Below are positions 3,126 to 63,131 of a stretch of DNA of 64,000 bases, piece by piece (position 1 is the stretch's first letter; each line of letters starts with the position of its first letter). The notes below the pieces were generated by a model, which did not search any database, had not been told where the DNA came from, and was given only the letters and a program-made list of their open reading frames with translations. The position numbers were made by a program, and so were the translations under genes. Source of the DNA: an uncultured Anaerolineae bacterium (GTDB taxonomy: Bacteria > Chloroflexota > Anaerolineae > Promineifilales > Promineifilaceae). The DNA is taken from positions 124,001 to 188,000 of the forward strand of contig CAJQMR010000008.1 in assembly GCA_905479495.1 (NCBI GenBank), given 5' to 3'.

Positions 3126-3149
3126 GAGAATAATTGCTCAATTACCGAA

Positions 3150-4055
3150 TTACTCACGCCACCAGCCAAACCGCTGCCGCAGCCGCCAGCCAATCCAGCC
3201 AAATAAGGCCAACAGCAGCAGCCAGGGACCGCACACAATGCCGTAGTAGATGGAAAAATCGGCCGTTTTCTGGGCGGATTCTTGCAGATTGACTACCGCT
3301 ACCTGAGCTGTGTTGCCCGGTTGCCATGATTCGGCCGTGGGAATGGGGGAGGGCGTTGGCGTGGGCAGCAGCGGCTGCAAGGAAAGGTCGATGGTCGAAA
3401 AGGCAGCCCGATCGCTGAGGTAGTTGCGGCGGCCTTGAATAATGGCGATTTCTTCTTCAACCTGTTTGAGCTGATCGTTGACACGCAGTGCCTCTTCCAC
3501 TGTTTCGGCATCATCGAGGAAGGTGCGCAGGCGGTCGCGGGTGGCAATCAGATTGTCTAGCTTCGAGCCTAAATCGACGTACTCGTCGGTGACATCTTGG
3601 CCACCGGCAAAATCATTGGTCACCTGGCCCAGTGCCCGCAGTTGGTTAAGGGCGGTTTCAAATTGAGTCACTGGCAGGGCCAACTGCATGTTCGCTGCGC
3701 TAAGACCAAACTGCGTGTCAAAAATTTGCTGGCTGATGATATAACCACCTAATTCGGCGACGAGTTGGGTAGCAGTGGAGACGGCCGTTTCCGTATCTAC
3801 CACCATAATGGCCAGCTCCCCATTTTTGATGATGAGCCGTACTTGTGGTTGCGCATTTGCCAGAGAGGCATCTGCGCTTCCGGTAACGGATTCGGTTATT
3901 ACACGCGTGACCTCTACTGCTTCTCCTTCCACGGTGACCGTTTCGGTTACGACGCGTGTCACTTCTACCGTTTCAGCCTGCGACGCACAGGCCGCGAGCA
4001 CCAGCAGCATGGCGACGATTGCCGCTGCCAACCAAGAAAAACGTTTGGCGTTCAT
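3150..4055 (-). CDS. DUF4349 domain lipoprotein
   Basis: A 301-residue protein starting at ATG 4055 behind CAGGAGAAAGAAA. It has a lipoprotein signal with a lipobox (LLVLAACAS, Cys about residue 23), then an unusual stretch of repeated EVTRVVTE/VEVTRVITE units (residues 28-60), the DUF4349 region with a long helix (LKQVEEEIAIIQGRRNYL), a Pro/Thr linker (PTPTPSPIPT) and a C-terminal membrane helix (GPWLLLLALFGWIGW) ending in basic residues. It is therefore anchored at both ends. Function is unknown; it probably works with its downstream paralogue in the envelope. Confidence 0.87.
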   Translation of the reverse strand: MNAKRFSWLAAAIVAMLLVLAACASQAETVEVTRVVTETVTVEGEAVEVTRVITESVTGSADASLANAQPQVRLIIKNGELAIMVVDTETAVSTATQLVAELGGYIISQQIFDTQFGLSAANMQLALPVTQFETALNQLRALGQVTNDFAGGQDVTDEYVDLGSKLDNLIATRDRLRTFLDDAETVEEALRVNDQLKQVEEEIAIIQGRRNYLSDRAAFSTIDLSLQPLLPTPTPSPIPTAESWQPGNTAQVAVVNLQESAQKTADFSIYYGIVCGPWLLLLALFGWIGWRLRQRFGWWRE

Positions 4056-8704: not shown

Positions 8705-8769
8705 TGTAATTAAGTAATTGAGTAATTATGTAATTGCCCAATTACTCAGTTACCCAATTACTCAATTAC
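8705..8769. repeat. AATTAC-word hairpin (copy 1)
   Basis: One arm is a run of GTAATT/AGTAATTG words (8705-8735); the other is CAATTACTCAGTTACCCAAT and similar (8739-8769). The arms are complementary around a very short loop. The stop codon and last residue of the M42 gene ending at 8762 lie inside the repeat. Related copies are at 24881 and 37104. Confidence 0.9.
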
Positions 8770-9799
8770 GTTTCACAATATCCATGGTCAGGTTCAACAA
8801 CGTCGCCTTTGCCAGCTTCACCACATTCGCATAATCATCCAGATTAATCATCATGGCGGGCGTGTGGGCGTAGCGACCGGGCACGGCGATAGTGGCGGCT
8901 GGAATGGCTCCTCGCACGCGCTGGATAACGGCCGTATTTGTGCCGCCACCACCGGGACGACGAATTTGGCAAGGGATGTCATTATCTGCGGCCGTTTGGG
9001 TGATGAGACTTACCAGGCGCGGGTCTTGCATGGTGCCGCTGTCCATCACATAGATGGAGGGGCCTTTGCCCAAGGCTACATTCGGACTCACATCATCCTT
9101 GTTGGGCAAGTCATAAGCAGGGGTGCATTCCAAAATAAGGGCCACATCCGGCTTGACGCCGTAGGCGGCGGTGGTTGCCCCGCGCAGGCCAACTTCTTCC
9201 TGCACGGTGAAGGTGGCGATGAGATCGAAGGGATACGGCCGTTCCCGTAAAAGTTCAATCAACGCCGCGCAACCTGCCCGATTGTCGAAAGCCTTGCCAA
9301 CGGCCGTTGGCCCCAGCTCCTCGTACTCAGTTACGAACGCCGCCCGGTCGCCAATATTGACCTTGCCGCTGGCGGCATCTTTATTTTTGGCTCCAATGTC
9401 AATGCGCATGGCATCCATTTTGGTGATGGTGCTGCGCTGGGTGGCATTGAGCAAGTGGATGGGGCGTGCGCCAATGACCCCGGTCAGCTTTTTGGGGCCA
9501 ACCTGCACCACTTTGCCTAGCAGGGCACGGTCGTCAAAGCCGCCCACGCCGCTAAATTTCAGGGTGCCGTTGCTGTCGTAATCAGTGACGATGAGGCCGA
9601 CTTCATCCATGTGGGCATCTACCATCACCCGTAAATCAACTGCCCCAGTGCCCTTTTTCAGGGCAATCAGGTTGCCCATCGCGTCAACGTGCCATTCATC
9701 CACATGGTCGGCGATAAGGTCGCGAATGAGCAGCCGCACCTCTTTTTCCTCGCCAGACACGCCGACGGCTTCGGTTAGATTTTTGAGTAGTTCGTTCAT
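8762..9799 (-). CDS. M42 family metallo-aminopeptidase (2 of 3)
   Basis: A 345-residue M42 peptidase. ATG 9799 is preferred to the overlapping TTG at 9802 because GGAG lies 6 nt upstream of it. The metal and catalytic motifs are intact: VDAHMDEVGLIV, AFDNRAGCAALI, QEEVGLRGATT, LILECTPAYD (Glu replaces the usual Asp as metal ligand, as in some family members) and RYAHTPAMM. The last codons, AAT TGA, are part of the AATTAC repeat. It shares only family-level similarity with its two neighbours, so the triplet is an old expansion and may cover different peptide specificities. Confidence 0.93.
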   Translation of the reverse strand: MNELLKNLTEAVGVSGEEKEVRLLIRDLIADHVDEWHVDAMGNLIALKKGTGAVDLRVMVDAHMDEVGLIVTDYDSNGTLKFSGVGGFDDRALLGKVVQVGPKKLTGVIGARPIHLLNATQRSTITKMDAMRIDIGAKNKDAASGKVNIGDRAAFVTEYEELGPTAVGKAFDNRAGCAALIELLRERPYPFDLIATFTVQEEVGLRGATTAAYGVKPDVALILECTPAYDLPNKDDVSPNVALGKGPSIYVMDSGTMQDPRLVSLITQTAADNDIPCQIRRPGGGGTNTAVIQRVRGAIPAATIAVPGRYAHTPAMMINLDDYANVVKLAKATLLNLTMDIVKRN

Positions 9800-9815
9800 C
9801 AATTGCTCCGCAATT

Positions 9816-9880
9816 TGGAGATTGGAAACTGGAGATTAGAGATTGGCTTTAATCTCCAGTCTCTAATCTCTAATCTCCAT
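9816..9880. repeat. GGAGATTAG-word hairpin (copy 1)
   Basis: TTGGAGATTGGAAACTGGAG and GAGATTGG words face complementary AATCTCCAGTCTCTAATCTC words across a very short loop. It overlaps the last codons of the M42 gene ending at 9870, supplying GGA GAT TAG (Gly-Asp-stop). Related copies are at 26757, 42311 and 53971. Confidence 0.9.
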
Positions 9881-10958
9881 CTTTTTCCATCATCCCTGCC
9901 GCCAGTTTGCCCAAAAATTCGTCATCCAGGTTGGCAATGAATTCGCCCATTAAACGGCCGCATCGTTCCACATCCTTTAGGGCAACCGATTCGACCATGG
10001 TGTGCATGTAGCGCAGGGGGATGGAAATGAGTCCGGTGGGAATGCCGCTGCGGGCGACCTGCACGCCAAAGGCGTCGGTGCCGCTGGCCCGGTTGTGGGT
10101 GCCGGTGCTGATGGACATTTCCAGGGATTCGGCCGTTTTCTTGAGTGCCTTGTACATGCCGGTATGCACGTTTGGCCCCAAATCGAGCGAAGGGCCGCTG
10201 TCCAGCTCAAAGGTGCCGGTGTCGCTGGCCCCCGGCCCTTTGCCAAAGGTCACGTCGATGGCGATGGCCAGGTCTGGCTGCTGGGAATGGGCGCTGGTGA
10301 ACGCACCGAGTAGGCGCGTTTCTTCCTGCACGGTGGCCACGGCGACGACATCCCAACTGTGTGTACGCTGGCTCAAATAGTCCAGGCAGATGGTGACGGC
10401 GGCTATGGAGGCCCGATTGTCTAATGCTTTGCCCGCAACACGGCCGTTCTGCAATTTGCGCAGCGGCTGGCGGAAGCTTATAAAATCGCCTACGGAGATT
10501 TCTGCTTCCACTTCAGACAAGGGCAAGCCTACATCCACCACCAAATCTTCATAGCCAAACGGCTTGTTTCGTTTTTCTGGCGGCAGCATTGTTTTGGGCA
10601 GGCTGCCCAGGACACCAGTAAAATTTTTGTTTTTGCCATGTACCACCACCATCTGCCCATATAAATGGCGAATATCGACGCCACCCACGTTGGTGACGCG
10701 CAAAAAGCCATTGTCGTTATGGGACACAATCTGGTGGACCATCAGGGCGATTTCATCCATGTGGGCGGCCAACAAAATGGAGCGGCGGGGTGCCTCTCCG
10801 CTGCCCTCCTTGACGGCCATCAGATTGCCCACGCGATCCCGTACAAAATGAGTGGCGTATGGCTGCCACCACTCTTCTACGGCGTTGGCGATCGCTTGCT
10901 CATTACCAGATGGGCCGGGGACTTCGGTTAAAGTTTGTAGTAGTTTAAATGTATCCAT
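9870..10958 (-). CDS. M42 family metallo-aminopeptidase (3 of 3)
   Basis: A 362-residue M42 peptidase and the first gene of the triplet. The start is ATG 10958 with a weak AGAGAG site. Motifs: LAAHMDEIALMV, ALDNRASIAAV, QEETRLLGAF, AIDVTFGKG and RYMHTMVE. The QEE motif is followed by TRLLG instead of VG.RG, so the active-site surroundings differ from the other two copies. The C-terminus (MMEKDGD) ends inside a GGAGATTAG repeat. M42 enzymes usually assemble into dodecameric tetrahedral particles; with three genes, mixed assemblies are possible but not shown. Confidence 0.92.
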   Translation of the reverse strand: MDTFKLLQTLTEVPGPSGNEQAIANAVEEWWQPYATHFVRDRVGNLMAVKEGSGEAPRRSILLAAHMDEIALMVHQIVSHNDNGFLRVTNVGGVDIRHLYGQMVVVHGKNKNFTGVLGSLPKTMLPPEKRNKPFGYEDLVVDVGLPLSEVEAEISVGDFISFRQPLRKLQNGRVAGKALDNRASIAAVTICLDYLSQRTHSWDVVAVATVQEETRLLGAFTSAHSQQPDLAIAIDVTFGKGPGASDTGTFELDSGPSLDLGPNVHTGMYKALKKTAESLEMSISTGTHNRASGTDAFGVQVARSGIPTGLISIPLRYMHTMVESVALKDVERCGRLMGEFIANLDDEFLGKLAAGMMEKDGD

Positions 10959-11963: not shown

Positions 11964-14900
11964 ATGCCAGTAAGTCTGTGGGGTGTAAGTAGGGAAGTTT
12001 CGCTTGACCTGCCAAACCGTGCGGTAGGCTACCTGCTTTTGCTTTTGTGTGCAGCCCTTTTTGTTTACCTTGCATCCTATTTCCGTCCAAATTACCAACG
12101 TTTTTCCAGAAAACAGTGGCTTTGGACGGCTGCCCTTTCATTGGGCGGGCTGGTTACCAGCCAACTGCTCCCCTTTCACTTCCAATTTGCCTCGCCGCCC
12201 GTGGCTGAATTGCCAGATAGTGCGGCCATGCTGCTCGGTGGCATCCCGCTGCTGCTGGCTGGCGTTGTGGTGGGCCCGCCTGGGGCGCTGCTGGTTGGTG
12301 CATTTACTGGCTTGGGGACCCTGCTGGGGCAGACGCATTGGCTGTTTGATATTTTCTGGGGGGCGTTTACGGCCGTAACCATCGCTTTCTTGTTACAGCA
12401 AAATTATATCGGGTCGATTTACCATTGGCTGCGGCAGCCCTGGCTGGCGGGGTTGTTGAGCGGCTTGCTGTTTGTTGTTTTTAGCGGGTTTGGGGGCTTC
12501 GCGTCTGCAGCCGTTTCTGGTCTGTCGGCGCTGGATCAGGCCCTGGTGATGGTGACGGCGAATTTTTGGCCGTGTTTGCTGGAAGGAATTGTGGCAGGTG
12601 GCGTGGTCACGTTTGTTTTGCACAATATGCCCGATTTACGGCCGTCTCAATCGCTCATTCCCCCACCAACCCGGCGCAGCCTGCAAAAACGGCTCCAATT
12701 AAACTATTTCACATTTGCGGCCTTGCTTATCCTGCTTTCCATCACCGTTGTCTATAACTTGGCGGTCTCCGTTTCTACCCGGCTGGTGGTGAACCAGATG
12801 GCTTACAATGCCACCGTCGTTTCTGAGGCCATCCCCGAATTTGTTAACCAGTTGGAAACCCAGCTAACATTGTTTGAAGATGAGCAGGCGGCGCTGCTGA
12901 GTGACGATACGGCCGTTGCCAGCACTACTTTGGCCGAGCTGTACCGTCGGAATCCGACATACCAACAATTGTTGCTGGTTAATGAGGCAGGCGATGTAAC
13001 GGCCGTTTTCCCCCAAGACGAAACCATTCCCGAGCTTTCAGCCACAGAAACCACCGCCGTGGCTGAGGCGTTTACCCCCAATCCTAAGAGTGTAGCTCTG
13101 GCCAACATGCCTACGCAGGAACAAGTGTTGAGTTTGCTTTTGCCAGTGCGTCAGGATGGGGAAACGGCCGTTGTTCTCATTGGACGGCTGGCCAATTTTA
13201 GCCTGGATGATTTGCTGGTTGGTTTACAAGGCACGGTGGGTGGCGGTACCGGCTTTCTGGTCAATGAACAGGGACAAATTATCGCCCATCCTCAAAACAC
13301 GTATTTACGCGCTGGCTGGCCCGGCGAAGAGGATGAACTGCGTTCCCTCTGGTTCCTGGGCCTGGACGATATGGAGTTGGGTACAGCGTACCGTGGCTGG
13401 CTGCAAGGCAGCAGCACGCGGGACCTGATTTACACCAAAGCGGCGGCTGAGCTAGGTTGGACAGTGGTAACGGCCGTTCCCTATGAAATTGTGCTGGGGC
13501 AGGCATTGCGCATCGGCTGGCCGCTGCTGCTGGTACTGATTTTAGGCACGGTCCTGTTTTATACCAACGTTACCTTGTTGGGACGTGACATCACCCAGCC
13601 AATTAGCAAAATTGTGGCTGCCAGCAAGACGATGGCCGCCGGAGGCAGTTGGTCTGCCACGGAGCTGGAACACCGTGAAGATGAAATTGGCGAGCTAAAT
13701 CAGGCATTTATCCAGATGCAGCGAGCCACGCGTAAGCAGCTTAACGATTTGTCGCTGCTGTTGGGCACCAGCCACGATGTTTCCACCAGCATTGACCTAA
13801 CGCAGGGCCTGCCGGCCGTTTTGCGCGGCGCATTGCGCGGCACGGGGGCAGCTGGGGCGCGGGCTGTTGTGCTGAATCCGAGCGGCGGTGCCCCCCTTTC
13901 CTTTGGTGAAGGCCCAGCAGCCCCCGCGATGAAAGAATTGGATCGGCCGATCATGACCCGCCTGCGCCACATGCAGGAGCTGATGCTGGCCACGCCCAAC
14001 CAGATTCGTGCTGCTTTGGAGCTGGACCGTGACGCAGAGCCGCCGGTACCCGCCCTGGTGGCCATTCCGCTTTACTCCCATGATCGCTTCCAGGGGATTT
14101 TGTGGTTGGGTTACCGTCAGGCACACAGCTACGATATTTCTGAGCGCAATTTATTGGTGACGTTGGCCAGCCAGACGGCCGTTCTTGTTGAAAACGCCCG
14201 GTTGTATGCCATTGCTGAAGGGGGGCGTCGCCGGTTAGCGGCCGTATTGGCCAGCACCACAGACGCTGTTATCGTCACCGACCAGACCGAGCGTATTTTG
14301 CTCATCAATCGCGCTGCTGAGCGCATTTTTAGCCTGAACGCCAGTAAAGTGGTGGGTCGTCCGGTGGCCAAAGTGATTGAACCAGCCAAACTGGTTAAGG
14401 CCCTAACCGGCCAAGATGAGCACACCCGTAACTTAGAGCTGCCCATGCCAAATGGCCAAACTTATTACGCCAGCGCGTCCACCATCATCAGCAATGAAGG
14501 GCAAGTGTTTGGCCGGGTAGCGGTGTTGCGCGACATTACTCATCTCAAAGAAATTGATGAGATGAAATCCGATTTTGTGGCCACCGTTTCCCACGATTTG
14601 CGCAGCCCACTTACCTACATGCGCGGCTACGCTACCATGGTGCCGATGGTGGATGAACTTAGCCCAAAGCAGCACGAATATTTGGACAAAATTCTGGTCG
14701 GCATCGATCAGATGTCTCAACTGGTAGACGATTTGCTTGATTTGGGCCGTATTGAAGCTGGGGTTGATTTGGCTCAGGAGCGCATTGAGGTGAAGCCGCT
14801 GCTGGAAAGCATTGCTGAAGAATATTGGCAGCACGCACATCTGGCAGGCATTAAGCTCCAGGTAGACATTGCTGAAGATATTTCCCCAGTTCAAGGAGAT

Positions 14901-23875: not shown

Positions 23876-24343
23876 CTATAACCCTTCACGCTGGCGAATG
23901 GTTTCTAACAGTCCCCGACAACCATCGGCCACGAGCTGGTAGACGTATTCAAAATTGTTGGTGTAGTACGGGTCTGGAACGTCAGATTCTGCATTTTGGC
24001 TAGAGAAATCCAGAAGGCGATGTTGGTTGGAATGATTACCGAACTGGCGGCGCAGGTTGTTGCTATTGCTCTGGTCCATGGTGATGATGTAGGTTTGTGG
24101 ATCAGCCATATCTTGCGCAGTGACCTGGCGGGCACGGCCGTTATAGACAATGCCATGTTCGTTTAAGATTGCCCTGGTGCCAGGATGCGCTTTTTCGCCA
24201 ATGTGCCAGCTGCCGGTACCAGCAGAATCGATGTGAAACTTGTCCGTAAGTCCAGCCTCATCCACCAGCTGTTGGAATACCGCTTCAGCCATTGGCGAAC
24301 GACAAATGTTGCCCAGGCAAACAAAGAGGACGTTGATTGTCAT
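23876..24343 (-). CDS. Low-molecular-weight protein tyrosine phosphatase
   Basis: A 155-residue phosphatase. ATG 24343 follows GGAGAACCC; the track start lies 42 nt upstream. The P-loop VCLGNICRSPMAEAVF gives the C-x5-R nucleophile site at residues 8-15. DVPDPYY carries the catalytic acid Asp. Members remove phosphate from Tyr residues of kinases and envelope polymer regulators, and some act as arsenate reductases; the substrate here is unknown. It stands alone between rnpB and the reductase gene. Confidence 0.92.
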   Translation of the reverse strand: MTINVLFVCLGNICRSPMAEAVFQQLVDEAGLTDKFHIDSAGTGSWHIGEKAHPGTRAILNEHGIVYNGRARQVTAQDMADPQTYIITMDQSNSNNLRRQFGNHSNQHRLLDFSSQNAESDVPDPYYTNNFEYVYQLVADGCRGLLETIRQREGL

Positions 24344-24361: not shown

Positions 24362-24432
24362 GGTCGGTGAACCGTAATCGGTCATCTGTAATCACTTTTA
24401 CTGATTACTGACCACCGATTACTGATTACCGA
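24362..24432. repeat. CGGTAATC-word hairpin after rnpB (copy 1)
   Basis: GGTCGGTGAACCGTAATCGG and GTCATCTGTAATCA (24362-24394) are complementary to TGATTACTGACCACCGATTA and CTGATTACCG (24401-24431). It begins 5 nt beyond the rnpB 3' end on the minus strand. A one-armed relative is at 28007. Confidence 0.85.
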
Positions 24433-24436
24433 GTTG

Positions 24437-24844
24437 CCAAGTTCGCCTATAAGCCGCATTCTGTCTCATTTGCAAGGCTCGCGCATTGCAAACGTAGTGA
24501 TCATCTATCTGGGAGTGTTATTGCTAACACCCTCGTGCGACCTACCCGGACGTCAGATGGGACGAGCCGCCCCTTCGCCCTGCTTGGTCTTGCTCCCGGT
24601 GGGGTTTGCCTGGCCAGCGACATTACGGCCGCTGCCGGTGGTCTCTTACACCACCGTTTCACCCTCACTGGCGAATGCCACGACAACTTTCGTTGCCTGG
24701 CAATCACTAGCAATATACCTCTCTGTTGCACTGTTCCGTCGGGTCACCCCGCCCGGCCGTTAGCCGGCACCGTGCTCTGTGGAGTGCGGACTTTCCTCAG
24801 CCAGGTGTCAGAGACACCCAACCGCGATCACTCAGCCAACTTGG
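24437..24844 (-). ncRNA. rnpB: RNase P RNA, bacterial type A
   Basis: The universally conserved 5' segment GAGGAAAGTCCGCACTCC (antisense at about 24780-24800) and the 3' segment ACAGAATGCGGCTTATAGGC (antisense near 24450-24470) are both present at the expected spacing. The P1 helix is formed by CCAAGTT at the 5' end and AACTTGG at the 3' end, which sets the boundaries at about 408 nt. It is the ribozyme that matures tRNA 5' ends. ORFs called inside it are spurious. Confidence 0.96.
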
Positions 24845-24880: not shown

Positions 24881-24965
24881 ATTAATTACTCAATTACCTG
24901 ATTGCCCAGTTACAAACGGGCAAGTGGTAATCAGGTAATTATGTAATTGGGTAATTCAGTAATTG
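24881..24965. repeat. AATTAC-word hairpin (copy 2)
   Basis: CAATTACCTGATTGCCC (24891 on) pairs with GGGCAAGTGGTAATCAGGTA and following AATTG words, with an ACAAAC loop. It encodes the last residues and the stop of the CoxM-like gene. Confidence 0.9.
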
Positions 24966-25766
24966 TTTGAGTGTGCGGCGGGTGAGAACGGCAGCCATTT
25001 CAGCGCGATAGTTAGCCTCTCCGCGAAAGTCACCGGGGTGGGTGTTAGCGGCTGAAGCGGCAATAGCGGCCTCCTCTATGCCAATTTGGACAGCCTGCTC
25101 GGCGCTTTTCAGGCGAAACGGCCGTTCCCCCAAACCTGTCGCCGCTAATCGAACCGATTCATCGGCCATGCGCCAGCCAGTAATGGAAACGATGGGATAA
25201 TCAGCTGGGGTGCGGGCCACGCGATGGCTGGCTCCACTGCCTTCGATGACGGGAACCGTAACAGTGGTGATGAGGCCAGACGGCCGTTCCACATCAGCTA
25301 AATAATCGGCCAAAGTAATACTGTTTTGGCTCGATGGGCTGTGCAAGGTCACAGTCGCCTCAAGTACCAGCAGCGCGGCCAGCAGTTCGCTATCTGGCAG
25401 GCGGCTGGCCACGGTGCCGCCCAACGTGGCGGCGTTGCGGTACGTGTTGGGGCCAGCCTGGTGGATAGCCGTTTGCAGCAAGGCAGCGACCTCGTTTTCT
25501 GGTAATTCTGCTTCTAAAAACTGGCTCAATTTGGTGAGTGTCAGCGTTGCCCCCAACGCCAGCGTTTGTTTGTCACCGGCAGTCACCAATTGAGCCTGAC
25601 CCAGGCCTAACGCTTGCAGATCGATTACGGCCGTTCCCGGCAAACCAGTTTCCGAAGCCAGGAGCTTGGTACCGCCAGCCAGCGGCGCACTGCCAGGTTT
25701 GGCCAGCAGGGCTAGGGCTTCCTCTAGCGATTCGGGGCGATGATAGCTGTCTGGTTTTTGGGGCAT
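24939..25766 (-). CDS. FAD-binding subunit of a molybdenum hydroxylase (CoxM-like), orphan
   Basis: A 275-residue protein starting at ATG 25766. It has the FAD-site motifs of the xanthine dehydrogenase/CO dehydrogenase medium subunit: LAGGTKLLA (first FAD loop) and NTYRNAATLGGTVASRLPDS (second). Normally it pairs with an iron-sulfur small subunit and a molybdopterin large subunit; neither is within 64 kb. It may act with distant partners, or be a remnant. The last residues (LLNYPIT) are encoded by an AATTAC-type intergenic repeat, so the native C-terminus may have been replaced. Confidence 0.85.
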   Translation of the reverse strand: MPQKPDSYHRPESLEEALALLAKPGSAPLAGGTKLLASETGLPGTAVIDLQALGLGQAQLVTAGDKQTLALGATLTLTKLSQFLEAELPENEVAALLQTAIHQAGPNTYRNAATLGGTVASRLPDSELLAALLVLEATVTLHSPSSQNSITLADYLADVERPSGLITTVTVPVIEGSGASHRVARTPADYPIVSITGWRMADESVRLAATGLGERPFRLKSAEQAVQIGIEEAAIAASAANTHPGDFRGEANYRAEMAAVLTRRTLKQLLNYPIT

Positions 25767-25896: not shown

Positions 25897-26757
25897 ATGC
25901 TTAAGCCTACCTCTCCATTTTCTATGAGTTTAAAGGATGCTTTTCAGCGGCGACGCGCGGTGGCTTTGGGTGTGGTGTTGCTGGTGCTAGTGGCGATGGG
26001 CTGGTTTGCCGTGACGGATAGCACGCACCTGGCGCATGAACCGTTGTTAACCGGTGGGGATTATCTGGGGGCGGCGATTTGTCATCGCATCACGTCTCAC
26101 TCGCTCATGATAAACGGCCGTCAATTTCCTCTCTGTGCGCGCTGCACCGGCATGTATTTGGGCGTGGCGCTGGCCTTTGGCGCACTGTTGTTGGCCGGGC
26201 GCACCCGGCGCACCGATCTGCCGCCGCTGCCCATTTTGCTCACGCTGGTGGGCTTCATTGGCATCATGGGACTTGATGGCTTGAACTCGTATTCCCACTT
26301 TTTCCCAAATTTTCCGCATGTGTACGAACCGCAAAACTGGCTGCGTCTGGTCACCGGTGTGGGGGCTGGATTGGCGATGGGATTGCTCATTTTCCCGGCA
26401 TTGATGCAGACACTGTGGCGCGAGGTAAACGGCCGTCCCATCATTGAGTCGGCGCGGGAATTACTGGGGATGGTATTGTTGGCGGGTATGGCCGTTCTCC
26501 TGGTTCTGAGCAACCAACCCACGCTCCTATACGTATTAGCCCTCGTAAGCGTAGCCGGCGTTTTGCTCATTGTGACGTCAATTAATGCCGTGCTGTTGTT
26601 GATGCTTTTTAAGCGGGATGGATTTGCGGTAAGATGGCAGGAAACGGCCGTGCCGCTCCTGGTCAGTTTTGGCCTAACGATAATTGAATTAGGCACCATC
26701 ACTTTACTGCGCTTTAATTTTACCGGAACCATCACTGGCTTCCCTGGCTTATCTTGA
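25897..26757 (+). CDS. DUF2085 family membrane protein
   Basis: About 286 residues. ATG 25897 (MLKPTSPFSMSL) is the likelier start; ATG 25924 is possible, and neither has a strong site. Six or seven helices follow. The loop AICHRITSHS and FPLCARCTGMYLGVAL carry the Cys/His cluster diagnostic of DUF2085, which might bind metal or haem but has no known function. The stop is followed at once by a GGAGATTAG-type repeat and then a DUF4126 gene. Confidence 0.8.
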   Translation: MLKPTSPFSMSLKDAFQRRRAVALGVVLLVLVAMGWFAVTDSTHLAHEPLLTGGDYLGAAICHRITSHSLMINGRQFPLCARCTGMYLGVALAFGALLLAGRTRRTDLPPLPILLTLVGFIGIMGLDGLNSYSHFFPNFPHVYEPQNWLRLVTGVGAGLAMGLLIFPALMQTLWREVNGRPIIESARELLGMVLLAGMAVLLVLSNQPTLLYVLALVSVAGVLLIVTSINAVLLLMLFKRDGFAVRWQETAVPLLVSFGLTIIELGTITLLRFNFTGTITGFPGLS

Positions 26758-26799
26758 GAGACTAGAGATTAAATCTCCAATTTCTAATCCCCAGTCTCC
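26757..26799. repeat. GGAGATTAG-word hairpin (copy 2)
   Basis: GAGACTAGAGATT faces AATCTCCAATTTCTAATCCC and CAGTCTCC, an imperfect hairpin. It starts at the stop codon (TGA) of the DUF2085 gene and ends 18 nt before the next ATG. Confidence 0.8.
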
Positions 26800-28006: not shown

Positions 28007-28044
28007 ACCGATCACCGATTACTGATTACCGCTTACCGCTTACT
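28007..28044. repeat. CGGTAATC-word repeat, one arm (copy 2)
   Basis: CCGATCACCGATTACTGATT and CCGCTTACCGCTTACTG words. On the minus strand it follows the last codon of the GTPase gene and contributes its stop (CAG TAA GCGG). No complementary second arm is obvious. Confidence 0.75.
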
Positions 28045-29797
28045 GTTCGCTTTCCTCCGCAATTGCTTTTAACTTCAACTGTGCTTGCAGGCCACTGATG
28101 TGCGCTTCCAGCTCTACCAACTCATCCCGCTGAGCAGAAATTTTATCATTTTCAGCGCGAACAAAACGGGCAAACGGGGCGATGGTATCCTCAATGCGTT
28201 GGGCACCACGCCGCATTTCACGAGTGAATTGTTCGGTTAGACTGCTGACCAGTTTCTGGCGCAGGTCGGCCAACTTCTCGGCAAACTCAGCTTTTGCTTT
28301 CCGTTTACGAGCCGGTAAAACGAGCAGCCCCAAGGCCGCTGCCGCAATTCCGGCAAAGATGCCTGTGTAGTCGAAGAAGGCGGTGTGGGCAACCACGGTA
28401 ATCAGAACACCCAAGCCAACGCCAACCCCAGCCAAACCTGTATTGACAACGGCCGTTCGCGCCGCAGAGGCCATTTCCATGGCTTCTTTCTCTTTGTCGT
28501 AGGTTTCTACGGCCCGCCGGGTGGCCGCCCCGATGGAGTCGATCAGGCGCTGCCGATCATAGGCTAGCGTGCCTTCTTTGGGACCGGCTTGCCCCACGAC
28601 GCGATTGTCGTGGGCTTCCTTGCGCTGCGCCATGTGGTCGGCAATCGCGGTCCATTGGCGCAAATCTTGTTCCACCATCCAGTCGATGAGTTCGCTAACC
28701 CGACTTTCAATGTCGCGGGGCGTTTGGCCGACAACCTCTTGCTCAAATGCTTTTTCCATTTGGCGCGCCCGCATCAGGTCTGGAATGCGGCCCAGTCGCA
28801 TTGTTTCGTCAAAAAAGTCGTTGCCCCGTTTTTCCATCTCGTACAAAACATTGTCGATTTCACTAAGGCGGGCCTTGAAGTTGCGCTGCATGTCTTCGTC
28901 ATAATACAGCATCTGCCGCTCGATGTCGTCTAGCAGCTGCCGGTCCTCTTCCAGAGAAGCAAGGTCAGATTCGCTGTAGCTGAGCTGTTTGCGTACCAGC
29001 TTGAGTCCCACTCCCAATGGATTGAGCAGCTTAAGGCGGAAACGGCCGTCGTCATCCAATGTGTCATGGATAAACTGCTCCAGCGGTTCAAAGCCGCTTT
29101 GCTGCCACAGTTGGGGCTGACCGGCTTTGGCCTGTTGGGCCTGCTTGGCAGAAATGGGGAACACGGCCGAAATCTCACCCACCAGATTTTTGGCAGACTC
29201 TTTGACAAACTCGATGACCTGATTGCGCTCACCCTCTTTGGAAAGAATGTCGGTTTTGTTAACCAGCAGCACAATCTTTTTGCCCCAGTCCCGAATCTGG
29301 GCCAGGAAGGTGCGCTCGCTTTCGCTAAACGGCCGATCCGCCGAGGTGATGAACAGCACCAAATCAGAGCGAGGAATGAATTCGGCCGTCAGCGCCTCGT
29401 GCTCACGCAAGATGGCGTTGGTGCCGGGTGTGTCCACAATGCTGATTTTCTTGAGCATTTCGATGGGGGCCGTTTGCACCCAAACGCCTTTGTCACCAGG
29501 TACCTGGTTGGTTACTTCGCCGTACTTCAGCAGAAAAATCTGGCTGGTAGTTGGGGTGACGCCTTCCGTTTGCAGCTCTTGCCCCAAAAAGGCATTGATA
29601 AAGGCCGATTTGCCTGAATTGAATTCTCCGGCGACGACAAGCAGAAACAGGTCATCTAGCTGGCGGATAGAGTCGGCCAGGGCGGTGCGGTTTTCTTTAG
29701 AAGCGGCCGTATCGCCTAACAGGTCTCGCAGTCGGCCTAATGTATCGCGGGTGCGTTTGAGCAGTTCTTCTTGCTCGGTGTTTAAAATAGCGTCCAT
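28040..29797 (-). CDS. Dynamin-like (BDLP family) GTPase
   Basis: A 585-residue large GTPase. ATG 29797 is the only good start, with a weak site. G1 is VVAGEFNSGKSAFINAFLG, G2 is TPTTSQIFLL, G3 is IVDTPGTNAI and G4 is LLVNKTDILS. The rest is helical with coiled-coil segments, two hydrophobic segments (VVNTGLAGVGVGLGVLITVV and FAGIAAAALGLLVLP, about residues 455-500) and a basic region, then a terminal coiled coil. Bacterial dynamin-like proteins remodel or fuse membranes and can act in stress or phage defence. It is monocistronic and ends in a repeat. Confidence 0.92.
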   Translation of the reverse strand: MDAILNTEQEELLKRTRDTLGRLRDLLGDTAASKENRTALADSIRQLDDLFLLVVAGEFNSGKSAFINAFLGQELQTEGVTPTTSQIFLLKYGEVTNQVPGDKGVWVQTAPIEMLKKISIVDTPGTNAILREHEALTAEFIPRSDLVLFITSADRPFSESERTFLAQIRDWGKKIVLLVNKTDILSKEGERNQVIEFVKESAKNLVGEISAVFPISAKQAQQAKAGQPQLWQQSGFEPLEQFIHDTLDDDGRFRLKLLNPLGVGLKLVRKQLSYSESDLASLEEDRQLLDDIERQMLYYDEDMQRNFKARLSEIDNVLYEMEKRGNDFFDETMRLGRIPDLMRARQMEKAFEQEVVGQTPRDIESRVSELIDWMVEQDLRQWTAIADHMAQRKEAHDNRVVGQAGPKEGTLAYDRQRLIDSIGAATRRAVETYDKEKEAMEMASAARTAVVNTGLAGVGVGLGVLITVVAHTAFFDYTGIFAGIAAAALGLLVLPARKRKAKAEFAEKLADLRQKLVSSLTEQFTREMRRGAQRIEDTIAPFARFVRAENDKISAQRDELVELEAHISGLQAQLKLKAIAEESEQ

Positions 29798-37103: not shown

Positions 37104-37156
37104 TGTAATTGAGTAATTAGGTAATTGAGTAACTTGCCACTCAATTACCTAATTAC
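37104..37156. repeat. AATTAC-word hairpin (copy 3)
   Basis: GTAATTGAGTAATTAGGTAA and TTGAG face CTCAATTACCTAATTAC around an AACTTGCCA loop. It follows the Lnt-like gene (stop at 37164, minus strand) and precedes the phosphorylase gene. Confidence 0.9.
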
Positions 37157-37163
37157 GAAGGCG

Positions 37164-38699
37164 TTAGCTCTTTTTCTGCTGACGCATTACCATTTCTTGA
37201 TAAACCATGAAGAAGATGAGGCCGATGACACAAAGGATGCCGACCCAGTCGCCTAGCGTGATGTATGGGCTGTTGGCGCTGCCCAGAGCCACGTCGGCGA
37301 CCAGCAAATTCTGGCTGCCTTCGGGGGTGGCGGTGTGGCTGAGGATACGGCCGTATCCATCTACCACCGAACTGTCGTAAGCGCGTTCTGATTTGACGAT
37401 GGCTGTTCTGTTCTCGATAGCCCGGAAAACGGTGTGCGTGTAATGATGGTAGGCAATGCCTGACCAGTCGTTGGACGGGGCAGCCAGCAGCTGCGCCCCT
37501 TGCCCGGCCATGATGCGTGACACATCTGTAAAGTCCAGGTCGTAGCAGATGGGGATGCCAATCGTGCCCAGCTCAGTGTCGTGTACCGGGTAGCTGCCCC
37601 GCGATAGGCTCGTCTCGCCTGCAAAGAAGACCGGATGTGCCTTGCCGTATACATCGGAAAATTCGCCCTGAGGTGTGACCAGTATCGACTCGTTGCGCAG
37701 CCCTTCTGGTGTTTCTACGATGTAGCCAAAGGCGAGATAGACGCCCGTTTCTGCGACCAGATTTTGCAGCGCCTCAGCCTGCTCTACTTGCGGTTCGCCT
37801 AAGTATACGCCTTCGGGCCAGACAACCAGCTGAGCACCCTGGGCGGCGGCAGCGCGAGTTTGGGCAAAGAGCGTGTCCCACTCTGCTTGCCGACCGGCTT
37901 CGGTAGAGTCCGGGCCAAGAACGTCAGCGACGTTGGTGCCGGGCTGCACAGAAGCCACACGGATTGTTTCTGGATTGTCGGGGATGGCGGCGTATTGAAT
38001 CAGGCTGATGGCGACCCAGAGTGTGGTGGCAACGGCCGTTCCCACCAGCCAGCGCCGACTGGCAGACGCTTCTACCAGGGGCAGCGCATCCCAACGAAAG
38101 TGCGTATCAAACAAGCGCATTGTGCCCAGCGCCAGGCTGTAGTTGATGGCCATAATCAGCAAGCCAGAACCAAAAATACCGAAGATGCTGATGGGTTGCA
38201 GCAGCCATGCCTGTTCATACAGCGGATGGCTGACAAAACCCCAGGTGCCAAAAATGAGGACGCGGATGAATTCCAGGCCGATCCAGGCCACAGCCCCTTC
38301 CACGACAAACCAGCGGTAGCGTGTTTGCTCGTGAAAAGCACGTTTACTTTTGTCGGCCAACAAATTGATGACGCCGATGATGATGGGTAATCCCTGCATC
38401 CACCAGACCAAATCGGCTTGTGTGCCGTTGATGCTGAAGATGTTTTGGAAGAAGATGCCCAACCAGCCGCCTATGGTGATAGCTGAAGCGAGGCTAGAGT
38501 ATTTGGCGGGCATGACGCGGTATTGAGACACGAGCATCGGCACGAAAGCGAACAGTACCAGCGGCCAGATGGTGTAGGGCGGGAATGCCAGCAAAAACAA
38601 GCCTATGCTTAACAGGGAGAGCAGTGCGCCGAGCAGCAGGCGAACGGCCGTATTCACGTTTGAACTTTCTTGGGTTTGGGTCAGGCTAACAGTTGTCAT
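37164..38699 (-). CDS. Apolipoprotein N-acyltransferase-like membrane nitrilase
   Basis: A 511-residue protein. ATG 38699 (MTTVSLTQTQ) follows TTGGAGATAATC; the longer track ORF is ignored. Seven or so helices (residues 20-225) precede a carbon-nitrogen hydrolase domain. The Glu-Lys-Cys triad is present: VVWPEGVYLG (Glu), DVYGKAHPVFF (Lys) and GIPICYDLDFTD (Cys). A final helix near residue 490 matches the Lnt arrangement. Lnt adds a third acyl chain to lipoproteins. Because Chloroflexota are generally regarded as lacking a lipopolysaccharide outer membrane, Lnt-type tri-acylation here would be notable; it could be a related acyltransferase. Confidence 0.82.
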   Translation of the reverse strand: MTTVSLTQTQESSNVNTAVRLLLGALLSLLSIGLFLLAFPPYTIWPLVLFAFVPMLVSQYRVMPAKYSSLASAITIGGWLGIFFQNIFSINGTQADLVWWMQGLPIIIGVINLLADKSKRAFHEQTRYRWFVVEGAVAWIGLEFIRVLIFGTWGFVSHPLYEQAWLLQPISIFGIFGSGLLIMAINYSLALGTMRLFDTHFRWDALPLVEASASRRWLVGTAVATTLWVAISLIQYAAIPDNPETIRVASVQPGTNVADVLGPDSTEAGRQAEWDTLFAQTRAAAAQGAQLVVWPEGVYLGEPQVEQAEALQNLVAETGVYLAFGYIVETPEGLRNESILVTPQGEFSDVYGKAHPVFFAGETSLSRGSYPVHDTELGTIGIPICYDLDFTDVSRIMAGQGAQLLAAPSNDWSGIAYHHYTHTVFRAIENRTAIVKSERAYDSSVVDGYGRILSHTATPEGSQNLLVADVALGSANSPYITLGDWVGILCVIGLIFFMVYQEMVMRQQKKS

Positions 38700-38815
38700 G
38701 ATTATCTCCAATTGGTTATTGATTGATGCGTTTAGCATAGCCAATTGGAGGTCATGGTTTGATGTGCTGATGGTCATGAACGAGTCATGAAGTAGACCAT
38801 GACGTGCACGTCTTA

Positions 38816-38875
38816 GATTGGACCAATTTGTTCGCCTCAACATTGCCAAGCAAAGAAAATTGGTCCAATCTTTTA
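38816..38875. repeat. Hairpin AGATTG(G)ACCAATTT after the EamA gene
   Basis: AGATTGACCAATTT (38816-38829) pairs with AAATTGGTCCAATCT (38861-38875) with one bulged base. It lies 3 nt from the stop of the EamA gene (minus strand). Confidence 0.85.
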
Positions 38876-42310: not shown

Positions 42311-42386
42311 GAAATTAGGGAGATTAGAGATTGGAGATTAGAGATTGGAGATTGAAAAATCTCTAATCTCTAATCTCCAATCTCTT
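42311..42386. repeat. GGAGATTAG-word hairpin (copy 3)
   Basis: The left arm has repeated GGAGATTAGAGATTGGAGAT words (42319 onward); the right arm is CTCTAATCTCTAATCTCCAA and TCTC. The loop is TGAAAAA. It sits between the converging permease and ornithine aminotransferase genes and is the longest member of this family. Confidence 0.93.
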
Positions 42387-45627: not shown

Positions 45628-45756
45628 TGTCATTCTGAGCGTAGCGAAGAATCCCTGCAGAGTTGTAAATACCAAGCGTCTTACAGGCGAACAAGGATGC
45701 TGCCTGCTCAGGCTTAATGGGATTTTTCATTTCGCTGCGCTTCATTCAGAATGACA
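45628..45756. repeat. TCATTCTGA-word hairpin (copy 1)
   Basis: TGTCATTCTGAGCGTAGCGA and AGAATCCC (45628-45655) pair with GGGATTTTTCATTTCGCTGC and GCTTCATTCAGAATGACA. The loop is about 60 nt and less structured. It ends at the stop of tgt (45758, minus strand). A second copy is at 55312. Confidence 0.9.
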
Positions 45757-50862: not shown

Positions 50863-50915
50863 CTCACCCACAATTAAATAAAGTCTTAGGCAATATAAAG
50901 CTTGCCTAAGCAATT

Positions 50916-51039
50916 CTTATCCAGAGAGGTGGAGGGAACGGCCCGATGATACCTCAGCAACCACTTATGATCGCCAGCTTGGCGCATTATGGGAAGGTGC
51001 TAATTCCGGCAGAAGAAATGTAATCTTCTGGAAGATGAG
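50916..51039 (+). promoter_or_regulatory. SAM-I (S-box) riboswitch
   Basis: The aptamer has the S-box core: CTTATCCAGAGAGGTGGAGG, AACGGCCCGATGA, CCTCAGCAACC and AAGGTGCTAATTCC. P1 pairs CTTATC (50916-50921) with GATGAG (51034-51039). SAM binding should favour the following terminator and lower expression of the downstream genes. CTTCTGG (51025-51031) can pair with CCAGAAG of that terminator as an antiterminator. Confidence 0.96.
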
Positions 51040-51061
51040 ATGTGGCAATATTGATTTTATG

Positions 51062-52482: not shown

Positions 52483-52524
52483 AAATCTGCGCGCGCAATC
52501 TGCGTAAATCTGCGTAATCTGTGG
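52483..52524. repeat. CGCAGATT-word repeat, one arm (copy 2)
   Basis: AAATCTGCGCGCGCAATCTG and CGTAAATCTGCGTAATCTG words, complementary to the words of the 36232 hairpin. It lies between the trans-sulfuration and aspartokinase genes without a clear second arm. Confidence 0.75.
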
Positions 52525-52556
52525 ATGAAAAGTTGTTTCTATTGAAACTGGAGAAC

Positions 52557-53966
52557 ATGATGACCTTAGTAATGAAATTCGGCGGAACGTCCGTGGGCAG
52601 TGTGCAGGCGATGCGGGAAACGGCCGTTCTCATTCAACACACCAAAAAACAGTGGGGCCAAGCGGTGGCCATCGTCTCCGCCATGGGCTCGAAGCCGGTA
52701 AAAGTGACCGATTTGCTGCTGCAAGGTGCGCATTCTGCGGCCAATGGCGATGGCGAAACGTACCAAAAATTGGCTGAGCAGCTGCGCCATATACATTACG
52801 AAGCGATTGACGGCTTGCTGGCTCCTGACGGGGAGCGGCAGCAAATTTTGGTGGAAAACGGCCGTTTCATTGACCGTTTTTCTGATTTATGTCAAGCTGT
52901 CTATGTGTTGGGCGAACTTAGCCCTCGGGCGTTGGACACCGTGGGCGGCATGGGTGAGCAGATGAGCGCCCGTATTTTGGCGGCGTACCTGCGCCAGATT
53001 GGCGTGCCCGCTGAAGCGATTGATGCGACCGAACTTATCGTCACCGACAGCAACTTTCAGAATGCGGCACCCCTATTTGCCCCGACCAAGCAACAGACGG
53101 AAAGTCGGATACGGCCGTTGCTGGCCCAGGGTGTTGTGCCCATTGTCACCGGTTTCATCGCCGCCAATGCCGAGGGCATTACCACCACACTGGGGCGGGG
53201 CGGGTCTGATTACACTGGCGCAATCCTGGGCGAAGCGCTTGCCGCTGATGAGGTCTGGATTTGGACTGACGTAGATGGCGTGATGACCGCCGATCCGCGC
53301 CTGGTACCCGACGCCCGATCGATTCCCCAGCTGAGCTATCGTGAAGTGTCTGAGCTGGCTTTTTATGGGGCCAAGGTGCTGCATCCCAAAACGATGCGAC
53401 CCTGTGTGGAGAACGGCATTCCGCTGCGTATCAAAAATACGTTCAACCCCGAACATCCCGGCACCGTCATCGTGCCAGACGCGCCCAACGGCAACGGCGG
53501 CATCAAAGCGGTGACGGCCATCAACAATTTAGGGTTGGTCACAGTAGAAGGTAAAGGGATGATGGGCATCCCTGGCATTGCCGCCCGTACCTTCGGCGCT
53601 GTGGCCCGCGACGATCAGAGCGTTTTGCTCATCAGCCAGGCGTCTTCCGAACAATCCATCTGCTTTGCCACCCCCGACGACGCCACAGACAAGATCATTC
53701 AGACCCTGGAAGATGAATTCAGTGTGGAGCTGGCTCGTCGGGATATTGATCGCATTTGGACCCATGAGCCGGTGTCGATTGTGACAATTGTGGGGGCGGG
53801 GATGCGGGGTACGCCGGGCATCGCCGGGCGCATCTTCACGGCACTGGGCGAGCAAAAGGTGAATGTCATTGCCATCGCCCAGGGGTCGTCTGAGTGCAGC
53901 ATCAGTGTGGTGGTGGATGATGCGGAAACGGCCGTTTCCGTTGCCCAAATCCATGCGCTTATATAA
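52557..53966 (+). CDS. lysC: Aspartate kinase (aspartokinase)
   Basis: A 469-residue monofunctional aspartokinase that starts the aspartate-family pathway to methionine, threonine and lysine. ATG 52557 has CTGGAGAAC before it; the next codon is a second ATG. The kinase begins VMKFGGTSVGSVQAMRETA; the nucleotide and Asp sites include TTLGRGGSDYTGAILG and WTDVDGVMTADPRLV. Two ACT domains end the protein (VTVEGKGMMGIPGIAARTFG and VSIVTIVGAGMRGTPGIAGR), implying feedback by lysine or threonine. It follows the SAM-riboswitch gene and probably shares the transcript. Confidence 0.94.
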   Translation: MMTLVMKFGGTSVGSVQAMRETAVLIQHTKKQWGQAVAIVSAMGSKPVKVTDLLLQGAHSAANGDGETYQKLAEQLRHIHYEAIDGLLAPDGERQQILVENGRFIDRFSDLCQAVYVLGELSPRALDTVGGMGEQMSARILAAYLRQIGVPAEAIDATELIVTDSNFQNAAPLFAPTKQQTESRIRPLLAQGVVPIVTGFIAANAEGITTTLGRGGSDYTGAILGEALAADEVWIWTDVDGVMTADPRLVPDARSIPQLSYREVSELAFYGAKVLHPKTMRPCVENGIPLRIKNTFNPEHPGTVIVPDAPNGNGGIKAVTAINNLGLVTVEGKGMMGIPGIAARTFGAVARDDQSVLLISQASSEQSICFATPDDATDKIIQTLEDEFSVELARRDIDRIWTHEPVSIVTIVGAGMRGTPGIAGRIFTALGEQKVNVIAIAQGSSECSISVVVDDAETAVSVAQIHALI

Positions 53967-53970
53967 AAAA

Positions 53971-54030
53971 TGAGAGTGGAGACTGGAGATTAACGATTGG
54001 CTGCTCTTTATCTCTAATCTCCACTCTTTC
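53971..54030. repeat. GGAGATTAG-word hairpin (copy 4)
   Basis: GAGAGTGGAGACTGGAGATT (53972 on) faces TCTCTAATCTCCACTCT. The loop is about 18 nt. It starts 5 nt after the aspartokinase stop. Confidence 0.88.
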
Positions 54031-55311: not shown

Positions 55312-55425
55312 CTCATTCTGAACGAAGCGCAGCGAAGTGAAGAATCCCTCTAAACACGATCGCTTAATAACCTTGCCCGTGATAGGTCGTGACCGTAGGG
55401 ATTTTTCACTGCGCTCAGAATGACA
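55312..55425. repeat. TCATTCTGA-word hairpin (copy 2)
   Basis: CTCATTCTGAACGAAGCGCA and AGAATCCCT (55313-55350) face AGGGATTTTTCACTGCGCTC and AGAATGACA. The loop is about 50 nt. It starts 9 nt after the stop of the binding-lipoprotein gene. Relative of 45628. Confidence 0.9.
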
Positions 55426-55604: not shown

Positions 55605-57284
55605 ATGGGTGTTACTGATTTTGGCAACGTACGGACGCTGCCCAGAATCAAAATTGAATTAGACCAGACGTGGCTGCGCCAGCGGCACTGGTCGCCATTT
55701 CACTGGCTGCTGGTGGGCAGCGCCGGGTTAGTTGCTGCCCTGATTCTGTTGGTTCCCACTTATTTGCTGCTGCGCGTAGGCACCAGTTGGGCCGAGGCGT
55801 GGCAAACGCTTTCCCAACCGCGTACATTAGAAATTTTGGGCAATACGCTGGGATTGGCCGCCGCTGTAACGGCCGCTTCTGCCCTCATCGCTGTTCCCCT
55901 GGCCTGGCTTACAACCTGTACCGATTTGCCTGGCAAACGGTTTTGGGCCGTGATTGCAGCTCTACCGTTGGTGGTGCCTAGCTACGTGGCGGCCTATCTC
56001 TTTGCCTCAATTTTGACCCCAAAAGGTTTATTGCAGCAGATTCTATACCCTATCTTCGGCATCGAACGGCTGCCAAATTTTTACGGTTTTCCCGGTGCAT
56101 TTATCGTGTTGACGCTGGTCAGCTACCCGTTCGTTTTTCTTACGGTGCGCAGCGCTTTGAAGAACATGGACCCGGCGTTGGTAGAAGCGGCCCGCAGTTT
56201 GGGGCTGTCGCCGTGGCGGGCCTTTTGGCGGGTGACCTTGCCCTATTTACGGCCGTCTATTGCGGCGGGTAGTTTACTGGTCATGCTTTACACCCTGCGT
56301 GACTTTGGTGCCGTGACCATGCTGCAATATTCCACCTTCACCCGTATCATCTACAACCGTTATTTGGGCTACAAGCTGGACATGGCGGCGGCGATGGCGT
56401 TGGTGCTGGTGGTGGTAACGGCCGTTATCCTCATTCTGGAACAGCGCAGCCGGGGCAAAGCCCAATACGCTCGCGTTTCTATCGGCGTAGCCCGTGCCCA
56501 AACCCCGGTGAAGTTAGGGCGCTGGCGTTGGCTGGGGCTGAGCCTAACTGGGTTACTCTCCTTTTGGGCGCTGCTGGTTCCGGCGTTTGGGCTGGCCTAC
56601 TGGTTTTGGCGCGGCCTGAATCAGGATTGGGCAGTGAAGAGCCTGGGTGCGGCCCAAACCAACGTGGACTCATTACTGTTGCTGGTGGAACCGGCCTGGC
56701 ATTCGTTGTCGGCATCGCTGCTGGGGGCGGGATTAGCCATGCTGCTGGCACTGCCCATCGCCATTTTGGTGGTGCGCCGACCGGGTCGTTTGAGCCGCCT
56801 GTTTGAACAGCTTTCTTACGCCAGTTTTGCGCTGCCGGGCATTGTGGTGGCATTGGCCTACGTCTTTTTTGGTACAAATTATGCTGCGTCACTTTACCAA
56901 ACCTTGCCGATGCTGCTGATTGCTTACGTCATTTTGTTCATTCCGCAGGCGGTGGGCGCACAGCGCAGTTCGCTGCTGCAAGTGTCGTCCACGTTGGAAG
57001 AAGCGGCACAAAGTTTGGGCAAACGGCCGTCCACTATTTTCCGTCGCATTACCCTGCCCCTGGTTAAACCGGGCATGCTGGCCGGGGCGGCGCTGGTTTT
57101 CCTTACCTGCATGAAGGAATTACCTGCCACCCTCATTTTGAGTCCGCTGGGCTTCAATACGTTATCGGCCGAAATCTGGGCCAACATTGGCGAAGCGTTT
57201 TTTGCTCGCGCCGCCGCCCCAACCCTGCTGCTGCTCCTGCTCTCCTCCATCCCCCTGGCCTGGATGACCTTGAGGAATAATTAA
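55605..57284 (+). CDS. fbpB: Ferric iron ABC transporter permease (fused FbpB)
   Basis: A 559-residue permease with two binding-protein-dependent transport domains in one chain, about 12 helices. ATG 55605. The coupling EAA loops are EAARSLGLSPWRAFWRVTLP (about residue 195) and EAAQSLGKRPSTIFRRITLP (about 465), one per half, as in FbpB/SfuB proteins. It moves iron from the binding lipoprotein across the membrane using the ATPase downstream. The stop lies in an AATTAATGG repeat. Confidence 0.93.
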   Translation: MGVTDFGNVRTLPRIKIELDQTWLRQRHWSPFHWLLVGSAGLVAALILLVPTYLLLRVGTSWAEAWQTLSQPRTLEILGNTLGLAAAVTAASALIAVPLAWLTTCTDLPGKRFWAVIAALPLVVPSYVAAYLFASILTPKGLLQQILYPIFGIERLPNFYGFPGAFIVLTLVSYPFVFLTVRSALKNMDPALVEAARSLGLSPWRAFWRVTLPYLRPSIAAGSLLVMLYTLRDFGAVTMLQYSTFTRIIYNRYLGYKLDMAAAMALVLVVVTAVILILEQRSRGKAQYARVSIGVARAQTPVKLGRWRWLGLSLTGLLSFWALLVPAFGLAYWFWRGLNQDWAVKSLGAAQTNVDSLLLLVEPAWHSLSASLLGAGLAMLLALPIAILVVRRPGRLSRLFEQLSYASFALPGIVVALAYVFFGTNYAASLYQTLPMLLIAYVILFIPQAVGAQRSSLLQVSSTLEEAAQSLGKRPSTIFRRITLPLVKPGMLAGAALVFLTCMKELPATLILSPLGFNTLSAEIWANIGEAFFARAAAPTLLLLLLSSIPLAWMTLRNN

Positions 57285-57373
57285 TGGTTAATGGTAAATT
57301 TTTAATGGTTAATGATCTATTGACACCCCTTTCCATTAGCAATTAACCATTTACTATTAGCAATTAACCATTG
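57281..57373. repeat. TTAATGG-word hairpin within the iron operon
   Basis: ATTAATGGTTAATGG and TTAATGGTTAATGAT (57281-57316) face CCATTAGCAATTAACCATTT and AGCAATTAACCATT. It supplies the stop of fbpB and ends 5 nt before ATG of the ATPase gene, so its stem could hide that gene's start region. Confidence 0.9.
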
Positions 57374-63123: not shown

Positions 63124-63131
63124 CCTCAAAT

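Follow-up and report, generated by a model that had tools for sequence, protein, structure and literature searches.

The short, hairpin-forming repeats at and around the gene ends of this Anaerolineae genome are most probably palindromic elements of the REP/RPE-like kind, which persist wherever proteins tolerate them and whose overlap with stop codons is a by-product. The relation to REP- or MITE-like sequences is suggested by the strength of the hairpins, by high and patchy copy numbers and by presence or absence of individual copies between congeners, and such copies would be gained and lost fast. We infer that these copies are mobile as elements, that selection against damage is sufficient to explain where they are found and that proteins altered by them remain functional.

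Repeat families and their spread among congeners

The window, i.e., the whole stretch of 64,000 nucleotides that was analysed, covers positions 124001-188000 of contig C8 of genome G000 (7.28 Mb, 52 contigs). The comparison set comprised 52 genomes of the family, and orthologue comparisons rest on the congeners G027, G028 and G029. Counts refer to sampled stretches of MAG contigs of G000 (1.42 Mb), G027 (0.48 Mb) and G028 (0.66 Mb), in total 2.57 Mb, with 2050 genes predicted on these contigs by a home-made caller. Tracts were detected by their units of 7 or 8 nt in six families, and this unit-based finder returned 0 tracts on a block-shuffled contig. A definition via enriched 9-mers was dropped, as it missed the octamer family found at coxM and indicated no effect of stop overlap.

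In the 2.57 Mb, 230 tracts of the six families were found. The repeats are about 20 to 90 bp long, with arms built of a short run of tandem copies of one unit, namely GTAATTNN (octamer, A8), RGAGATT (B7), CRGTAAT (C7), GTTAATG (D7), GTRAAAA or CGTGAAA. The window copies are predicted to form strong hairpins, with fold z-scores between -4.4 and -9.5. Besides the copies treated with their genes below, the window contains the following tracts:

3132..3153, unstranded: GTAATTNN tract with one arm only, at the stop codon of the gene at 3150-4055 (-) (tract finder)
24372..24431, unstranded: C7 hairpin between rnpB and the gene at 23876-24292 (-) (tract finder)
26757..26799, unstranded: B7 hairpin that begins within the stop of the gene at 25960-26757 (+) (tract finder)
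37105..37156, unstranded: GTAATTNN hairpin just 3' of the stop of the gene at 37164-38849 (-) (fold z = -8.1)
42319..42385, unstranded: B7 hairpin in the gap of a convergent gene pair, its second arm followed by a T run (fold -46.5 kcal/mol, z = -9.5)
53978..54022, unstranded: B7 hairpin 3' of the stop of the gene at 52521-53966 (+) (tract finder)

Copy numbers differ widely even within the genus. Three consecutive GTAATTNN units occur 148, 7, 126 and 103 times in the four congeners, with 148 in G000 and 7 in G027; in G006, from another genus of the same family, the GTAATTNN family reaches 748 copies. Among 183 orthologous genes, a downstream tract was present in G000 only for 17, in G027 only for 5 and in both for 8, and at the stop of the gene G000C8_69 a clean insertion is seen.

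Comparison of filled and empty sites between congeners yielded no recognisable target-site duplication, and no parent transposon was found for the repeat families. Matches to PF01797 (Y1_Tnp) number 5-8 in three of the four congeners, with one weak match in the fourth, and a tract lies near just 1 of 10 fetched PF01797 loci, which links no mobilising enzyme to the repeats; a RAYT-type transposase as mobiliser is unsupported by these few genes. In none of the families do the two arms of one copy pair significantly better with each other than with arms of other copies, and copy-specific pairing as a sign of hairpin correction or selection was dropped.

The window holds further repeats and RNA elements. 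Palindromes of the type ACGGCCGT, which resemble the HIP1 octamer of cyanobacteria, occupy dozens of coding and non-coding sites (e.g., 11041, 30863 and 53913). A separate and longer inverted repeat, TCATTCTGA...GAATCCCT, is intergenic at 45714-45754 and 55313-55353 and also at 45628-45656 and 55397-55425. Rfam matches identify a SAM riboswitch at 50914-51041 and the tmRNA gene at 62711-63126.

Placement relative to starts and stops

Tracts meet gene ends far more often than gene starts. In the sampled stretches of the three genomes, the stop lies inside the tract at 73 of the 208 gene 3' ends that face one, whereas of the 174 sides that face a start, 5 have the start inside (Fisher p = 7e-17); starts are avoided, presumably because selection protects them. 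The overlap reaches 6 coding nt or more at 34 of the 208 ends, and at 77 the tract lies 0-15 nt downstream. Stops are nevertheless not preferred targets, since tracts spread evenly across the gap plus the final 24 coding nt, a rough null model, would give about 95 overlaps where 73 were observed, and special targeting of stop codons was rejected.

Copies would persist where harm is small, that is 3' of stops, over at most the last 24 coding nt, or in loops and linkers with one open frame. Most units carry TAA, TGA or TAG. As neither 7 nor 8 is divisible by 3, each reading frame meets a stop again within 21-24 nt, and a gene entering an array therefore ends almost at once. The depth of stop overlap, which ranges from 1 to 24 nt, fits such stop-carrying units of 7 or 8 nt, as it is the depth that this recurrence predicts. 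The old stop would mostly be kept or swapped at a near-identical place, and occasionally, as in coxM, the end would be replaced with the gain or loss of a few residues.

Gaps between divergent genes are poorer in tracts than other gaps (odds ratio 0.50, p = 0.011). This scarcity could also be expected if the hairpins were transcription terminators or stabilisers of mRNA 3' ends under selection, with the overlap of stops following from that role. The fold z-scores given above, the T run behind the second arm of 42319-42385 and the effects on RNA that REPs elsewhere are thought to exert (PMC3733652) are in line with such a function. However, no other window copy has an obvious T run after its second arm, presence varies between congeners at most sites, the same families occur inside genes, where termination would be harmful, and the stops are not enriched beyond uniform placement. 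We therefore regard a selected RNA function as an unlikely origin of the overlap and retain tolerance of mobile palindromes as the preferred reading.

Gene ends that carry repeat sequence

The following genes and hairpins allow the fate of individual ends to be followed:

24939..25766 (-): gene of the CoxM-like FAD-binding subunit, 275 aa, ending ...TLKQLLNYPIT* (orthologue ends compared)
24884..24964, unstranded: A8 GTAATTNN octamer hairpin between coxM and rnpB (fold -27.2 kcal/mol, z = -5.0)
24434..24843 (-): RNase P RNA (rnpB), directly 3' of coxM and the hairpin (Rfam RF00010, 267 bits)
8762..9802 (-): M42 peptidase gene, ending KRN-TGA (Pfam PF05343; orthologues)
8706..8769, unstranded: GTAATTNN hairpin at the 3' end of this M42 gene (fold z = -7.5)
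9870..10958 (-): M42 peptidase gene, ending MMEKDGD-TAG (Pfam PF05343)
9817..9878, unstranded: B7 RGAGATT heptamer hairpin supplying Gly-Asp-TAG to this M42 gene (fold z = -6.6)
28040..29797 (-): gene of a dynamin-like GTPase, 585 aa (Pfam Dynamin_N)
28011..28045, unstranded: C7 CRGTAAT tract over the GTPase stop, including 3 coding nt (tract finder)
55605..57284 (+): ABC transporter permease gene (Pfam BPD_transp_1), named fbpB in the original prediction
57280..57368, unstranded: D7 GTTAATG hairpin over the permease stop, including 2 coding nt (fold z = -4.4)

The clearest case is coxM, whose 3' end reads ...LTRRTLKQLLNYPIT-TAA and whose protein ends ...LKQLLNYPIT. The AATTAC/GTAATTNN hairpin at 24884-24964 holds the last 23 coding nt, i.e., the last 7-8 codons, together with the stop, which bears out the proposal that LLNYPIT derives from an AATTAC repeat. 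Sharing of these residues by repeat-free orthologues had been named as the refuting observation, and such orthologues end differently, with ...RTLNQLN in G027 and ...RTLNQLQA in G028 and G029; the ends of distant orthologues mostly lie a few residues from the same Gln-Leu position. The RNase P RNA gene follows coxM in G000 and G027 alike, and at the syntenic site of G027 the coxM stop runs directly into the pre-rnpB sequence with the hairpin absent. Because the hairpin is missing at this junction, the alleles indicate that the repeat entered the gene end in the G000 line and replaced the old end, leaving a tail 4-5 residues longer. The motif CAATTAC, which encodes the Gln-Leu codons and matches the unit, is already present in coxM of G028 and G029. 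A peptide near-identical to the coxM tail, KI(T/I)QLLNYLP, is encoded by an intragenic GTAATTNN arm in related proteins, at L063:11977-11998 and 14302-14323 (G000 C8 31977-31998 and 34302-34323) and at local positions 557-578 of L091 (G028 C76).

As was originally proposed, the second M42 gene, at 9870, takes its Gly-Asp-stop from a repeat, namely from GGAGAT|TAG within a GGAGATT hairpin; 6 coding nt lie inside the tract. Its orthologue ends MMEEEGD in G028, again with B7, and MMEEDSKR in G027, where a CRGTAAT (C7) hairpin covers the stop. The permease stop at 57284 likewise lies in a GTTAATG tract; the sampled contigs contained no orthologue of this gene. For the M42 gene at 8762, AAT|TGA does sit at the edge of the GTAATTNN hairpin (5 nt), but the terminal Asn had wrongly been ascribed to the repeat; it is native, as the G028 orthologue without the octamer repeat also ends KRN, followed by TAG. 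Similarly, the GTPase stop is inside its CRGTAAT tract, but its end was not rewritten: the stop holds an identical position in G000, G027 and G028; the tract in G027 belongs to another family, and in G028 none was called. The end of the gene at 25960-26757 is conserved despite its B7 hairpin (PGLS in G027, PGLA in G028). At these three genes, orthologues without the respective repeat stop at the same place with the same or similar last residues, contrary to a rewriting of their ends.

Across 579 orthologue pairs, those without a repeat share the stop position in 72% and differ by at least 3 residues in 10%. With a tract within 15 nt after the stop these values are 95% and 0%, with an overlap of up to 5 nt 73% and 8%, and with an overlap of at least 6 nt 42% and 26%. 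At loci where only one species has a deep overlap, 4 of 9 differ by at least 3 residues compared to about 10% of controls (p = 0.009), a test that is indicative as the pairs are not independent. Two of the four changes are clear, coxM and G000C10_11, the latter ending 5 residues before its G028 orthologue, and the other two lie in tails that vary anyway. Shallow overlaps of up to 5 nt thus behave as if no repeat were present, and the excess of length change is restricted to overlaps of at least 6 nt.

The idea that repeats trim or rewrite C-termini thus holds as an occurrence, at coxM and in the excess at deep overlaps, but its effects are small and a minority outcome in the 579 pairs. In its strong form, insertion or conversion at gene ends would be a general and perhaps adaptive route to new C-termini. 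The residues gained by coxM, the shortened G000C10_11, the GD or SKR ending of the M42 enzyme at 9870 depending on the repeat family, and the length changes at deep overlaps speak for it; yet most stop positions are unaltered, stop overlap is not above uniform placement, the three genes named above keep the end positions of their repeat-free orthologues and half of the deep cases fall in variable tails, which makes a general route highly improbable.

A different origin of the stops would follow if the arrays grew in place by slippage or duplication from unit-like native gene ends, in which case the stops would be original and not donated. The stops within the units, the mostly conserved stop positions and unit-like native ends such as CAATTAC, GAGAGTGGAGAC and CGGTTATCCGTGGTCGG are compatible with growth in place. 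Slippage alone, however, cannot yield inverted arms, and two-armed hairpins of the same few families stand at unrelated loci, whole elements are missing at the same site in some congeners and per-family copy number runs from 7 to 148 within one genus. Growth in place is accordingly quite unlikely, and insertion of mobile palindromes remains the favoured account of the arrays. Some of the overlap may be due to convergence or to targeting by microhomology, as native coding sequence is sometimes unit-like (CAATTAC in coxM of G028 and G029, GAGAGTGGAGAC in G027C125_140).

In-frame copies inside genes and relation to known repeats

In the 2.57 Mb, 39 tracts lie wholly within ORFs and in frame, 20 of them at least 40 bp long. 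Coding-like flanks were found on both sides in all 38 testable cases, and the tracts themselves score as non-coding (average <0). Pfam and PDB comparison identified as hosts RACo, CODH/ACS, MenD, MenE, PurL, PurD-PurM, MutL, RarA, RecD2, adenine deaminase and GltD-like proteins, and placed several tracts in loops or at domain junctions and linkers. Clean in-frame length differences compared to G027 are seen in RACo (+14 aa) and PurD-PurM (+18 aa). Of all families, B7 (RGAGATT) is readable in the most frames, and 30 of 35 long B7 copies outside genes have an open frame; it contributes 29 of these 39 tracts, with 29 of its 77 tracts being internal compared to 10 of 153 in the other families (p = 1e-8).

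FGAM synthase (PurL) contains repeat-coded peptides in up to five loops (L146:12439-16266 in G000; L210, L211, L212, L213), and the same loop can carry different repeat families in different species and genera. In alignments read by eye, the loops read RLEIGDWRL...NLQSPIS in G000, G028, G003 and G004 and TFTINHLPLTIH in G027, and in several genera that lack the repeats these loops are short. In G028, a MenE-like CoA ligase gene (L132:14681-16258) has three in-frame repeats of three different families and a MenD-like gene nearby (L132:10413-12194) has one. A further in-frame peptide of G027, QSFD(S/T)AQDKSP (PurL of L211; G027C159_20, L181-L182), looks like the product of another coding repeat family. 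Tentatively, and with the case for and against nearly balanced, exchangeable hairpin families could recurrently colonise the same permissive protein positions, such as PurL loops, linkers and C-termini, so that repeat-coded peptides would be swapped between species and continually supply essential enzymes with new sequence for loops and tails.

The alleles described here form a before-and-after series in which hairpin repeat DNA of a free-living bacterium turned into protein sequence, be it at a C-terminus or in the interior of an essential enzyme, and are useful for studies on insertion tolerance in proteins and on the origin of new coding sequence. When these genomes are annotated, terminal residues and loops should not be taken as conserved function, since they can stem from repeats. 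In the open-access literature, subscription journals being outside the scope, we found nothing direct on such repeats in Anaerolineae or Chloroflexota and no description of these heptamer and octamer families or of family exchange at fixed loops.

The stop-codon part is known in kind, as stop donation and intragenic REPs are already published. REPs are palindromes tagged by GTAG or CGTC; the termini of GTAG REPs often give a TAG stop to flanking ORFs, some REPs lie inside ORFs including DNA repair genes, and grouped REPs encode 20-30 aa (PMC3733652). Both REPs and the repeats described here are small, abundant palindromes near 3' ends, mostly between unidirectional or convergent genes (PMC3733652), and the present ones are likewise depleted between divergent genes. 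However, their arms are tandem 7-8-mers whereas REPs have a fixed stem-loop, and no transposase gene with the repeats on its flanks was found (10 PF01797 loci fetched). The REP tags are not enriched at tract ends (GTAG 4.6% compared to 5.4% of random intergenic points, CGTC 3.0% compared to 5.9%), and membership in the tagged REP families was rejected for want of both the tag and an association with the transposase.

Rickettsia palindromic elements (RPEs) are about 150 bp long and encode a conserved peptide (PMC10969869). Here as there, several palindromic families have inserted into unrelated housekeeping genes without breaking the frame, and each contributes a peptide (PMC10969869), and the 39 internal tracts, e.g., in RACo, PurD-PurM and PurL, are in-frame palindromic insertions that leave the ORF open. 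Going by the published description, the present repeats are set apart from RPEs as simple-unit hairpins of 20-90 bp that mostly lie outside genes and belong to a large Chloroflexota genome, and by different families occupying the same loop across species.

The TAACTGA heptamer repeats of Beggiatoaceae overlap gene ends by up to 18 nt, with the stop overlapped in 13 ORFs, and share with the present repeats tandem units of 7 nt and stops in all frames (PMC4679880). They are, however, direct repeats and mostly upstream of starts, whereas the repeats described here form hairpins from inverted arms and mostly lie at 3' ends; with units and placement differing, membership in this type was rejected. 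The closest precedent for coxM as an event is the enterobacterial RU-1, of the RU/ERIC type, which became fused to an amidase gene at its 3' end, abolishing the normal stop and lengthening the protein C-terminally (PMC2759123). RU/ERIC-type sequences are unrelated to the present repeats, with lengths of 103-168 bp and extensions of tens of residues (PMC2759123), but the fusion is the same kind of event as the one at the end of coxM.
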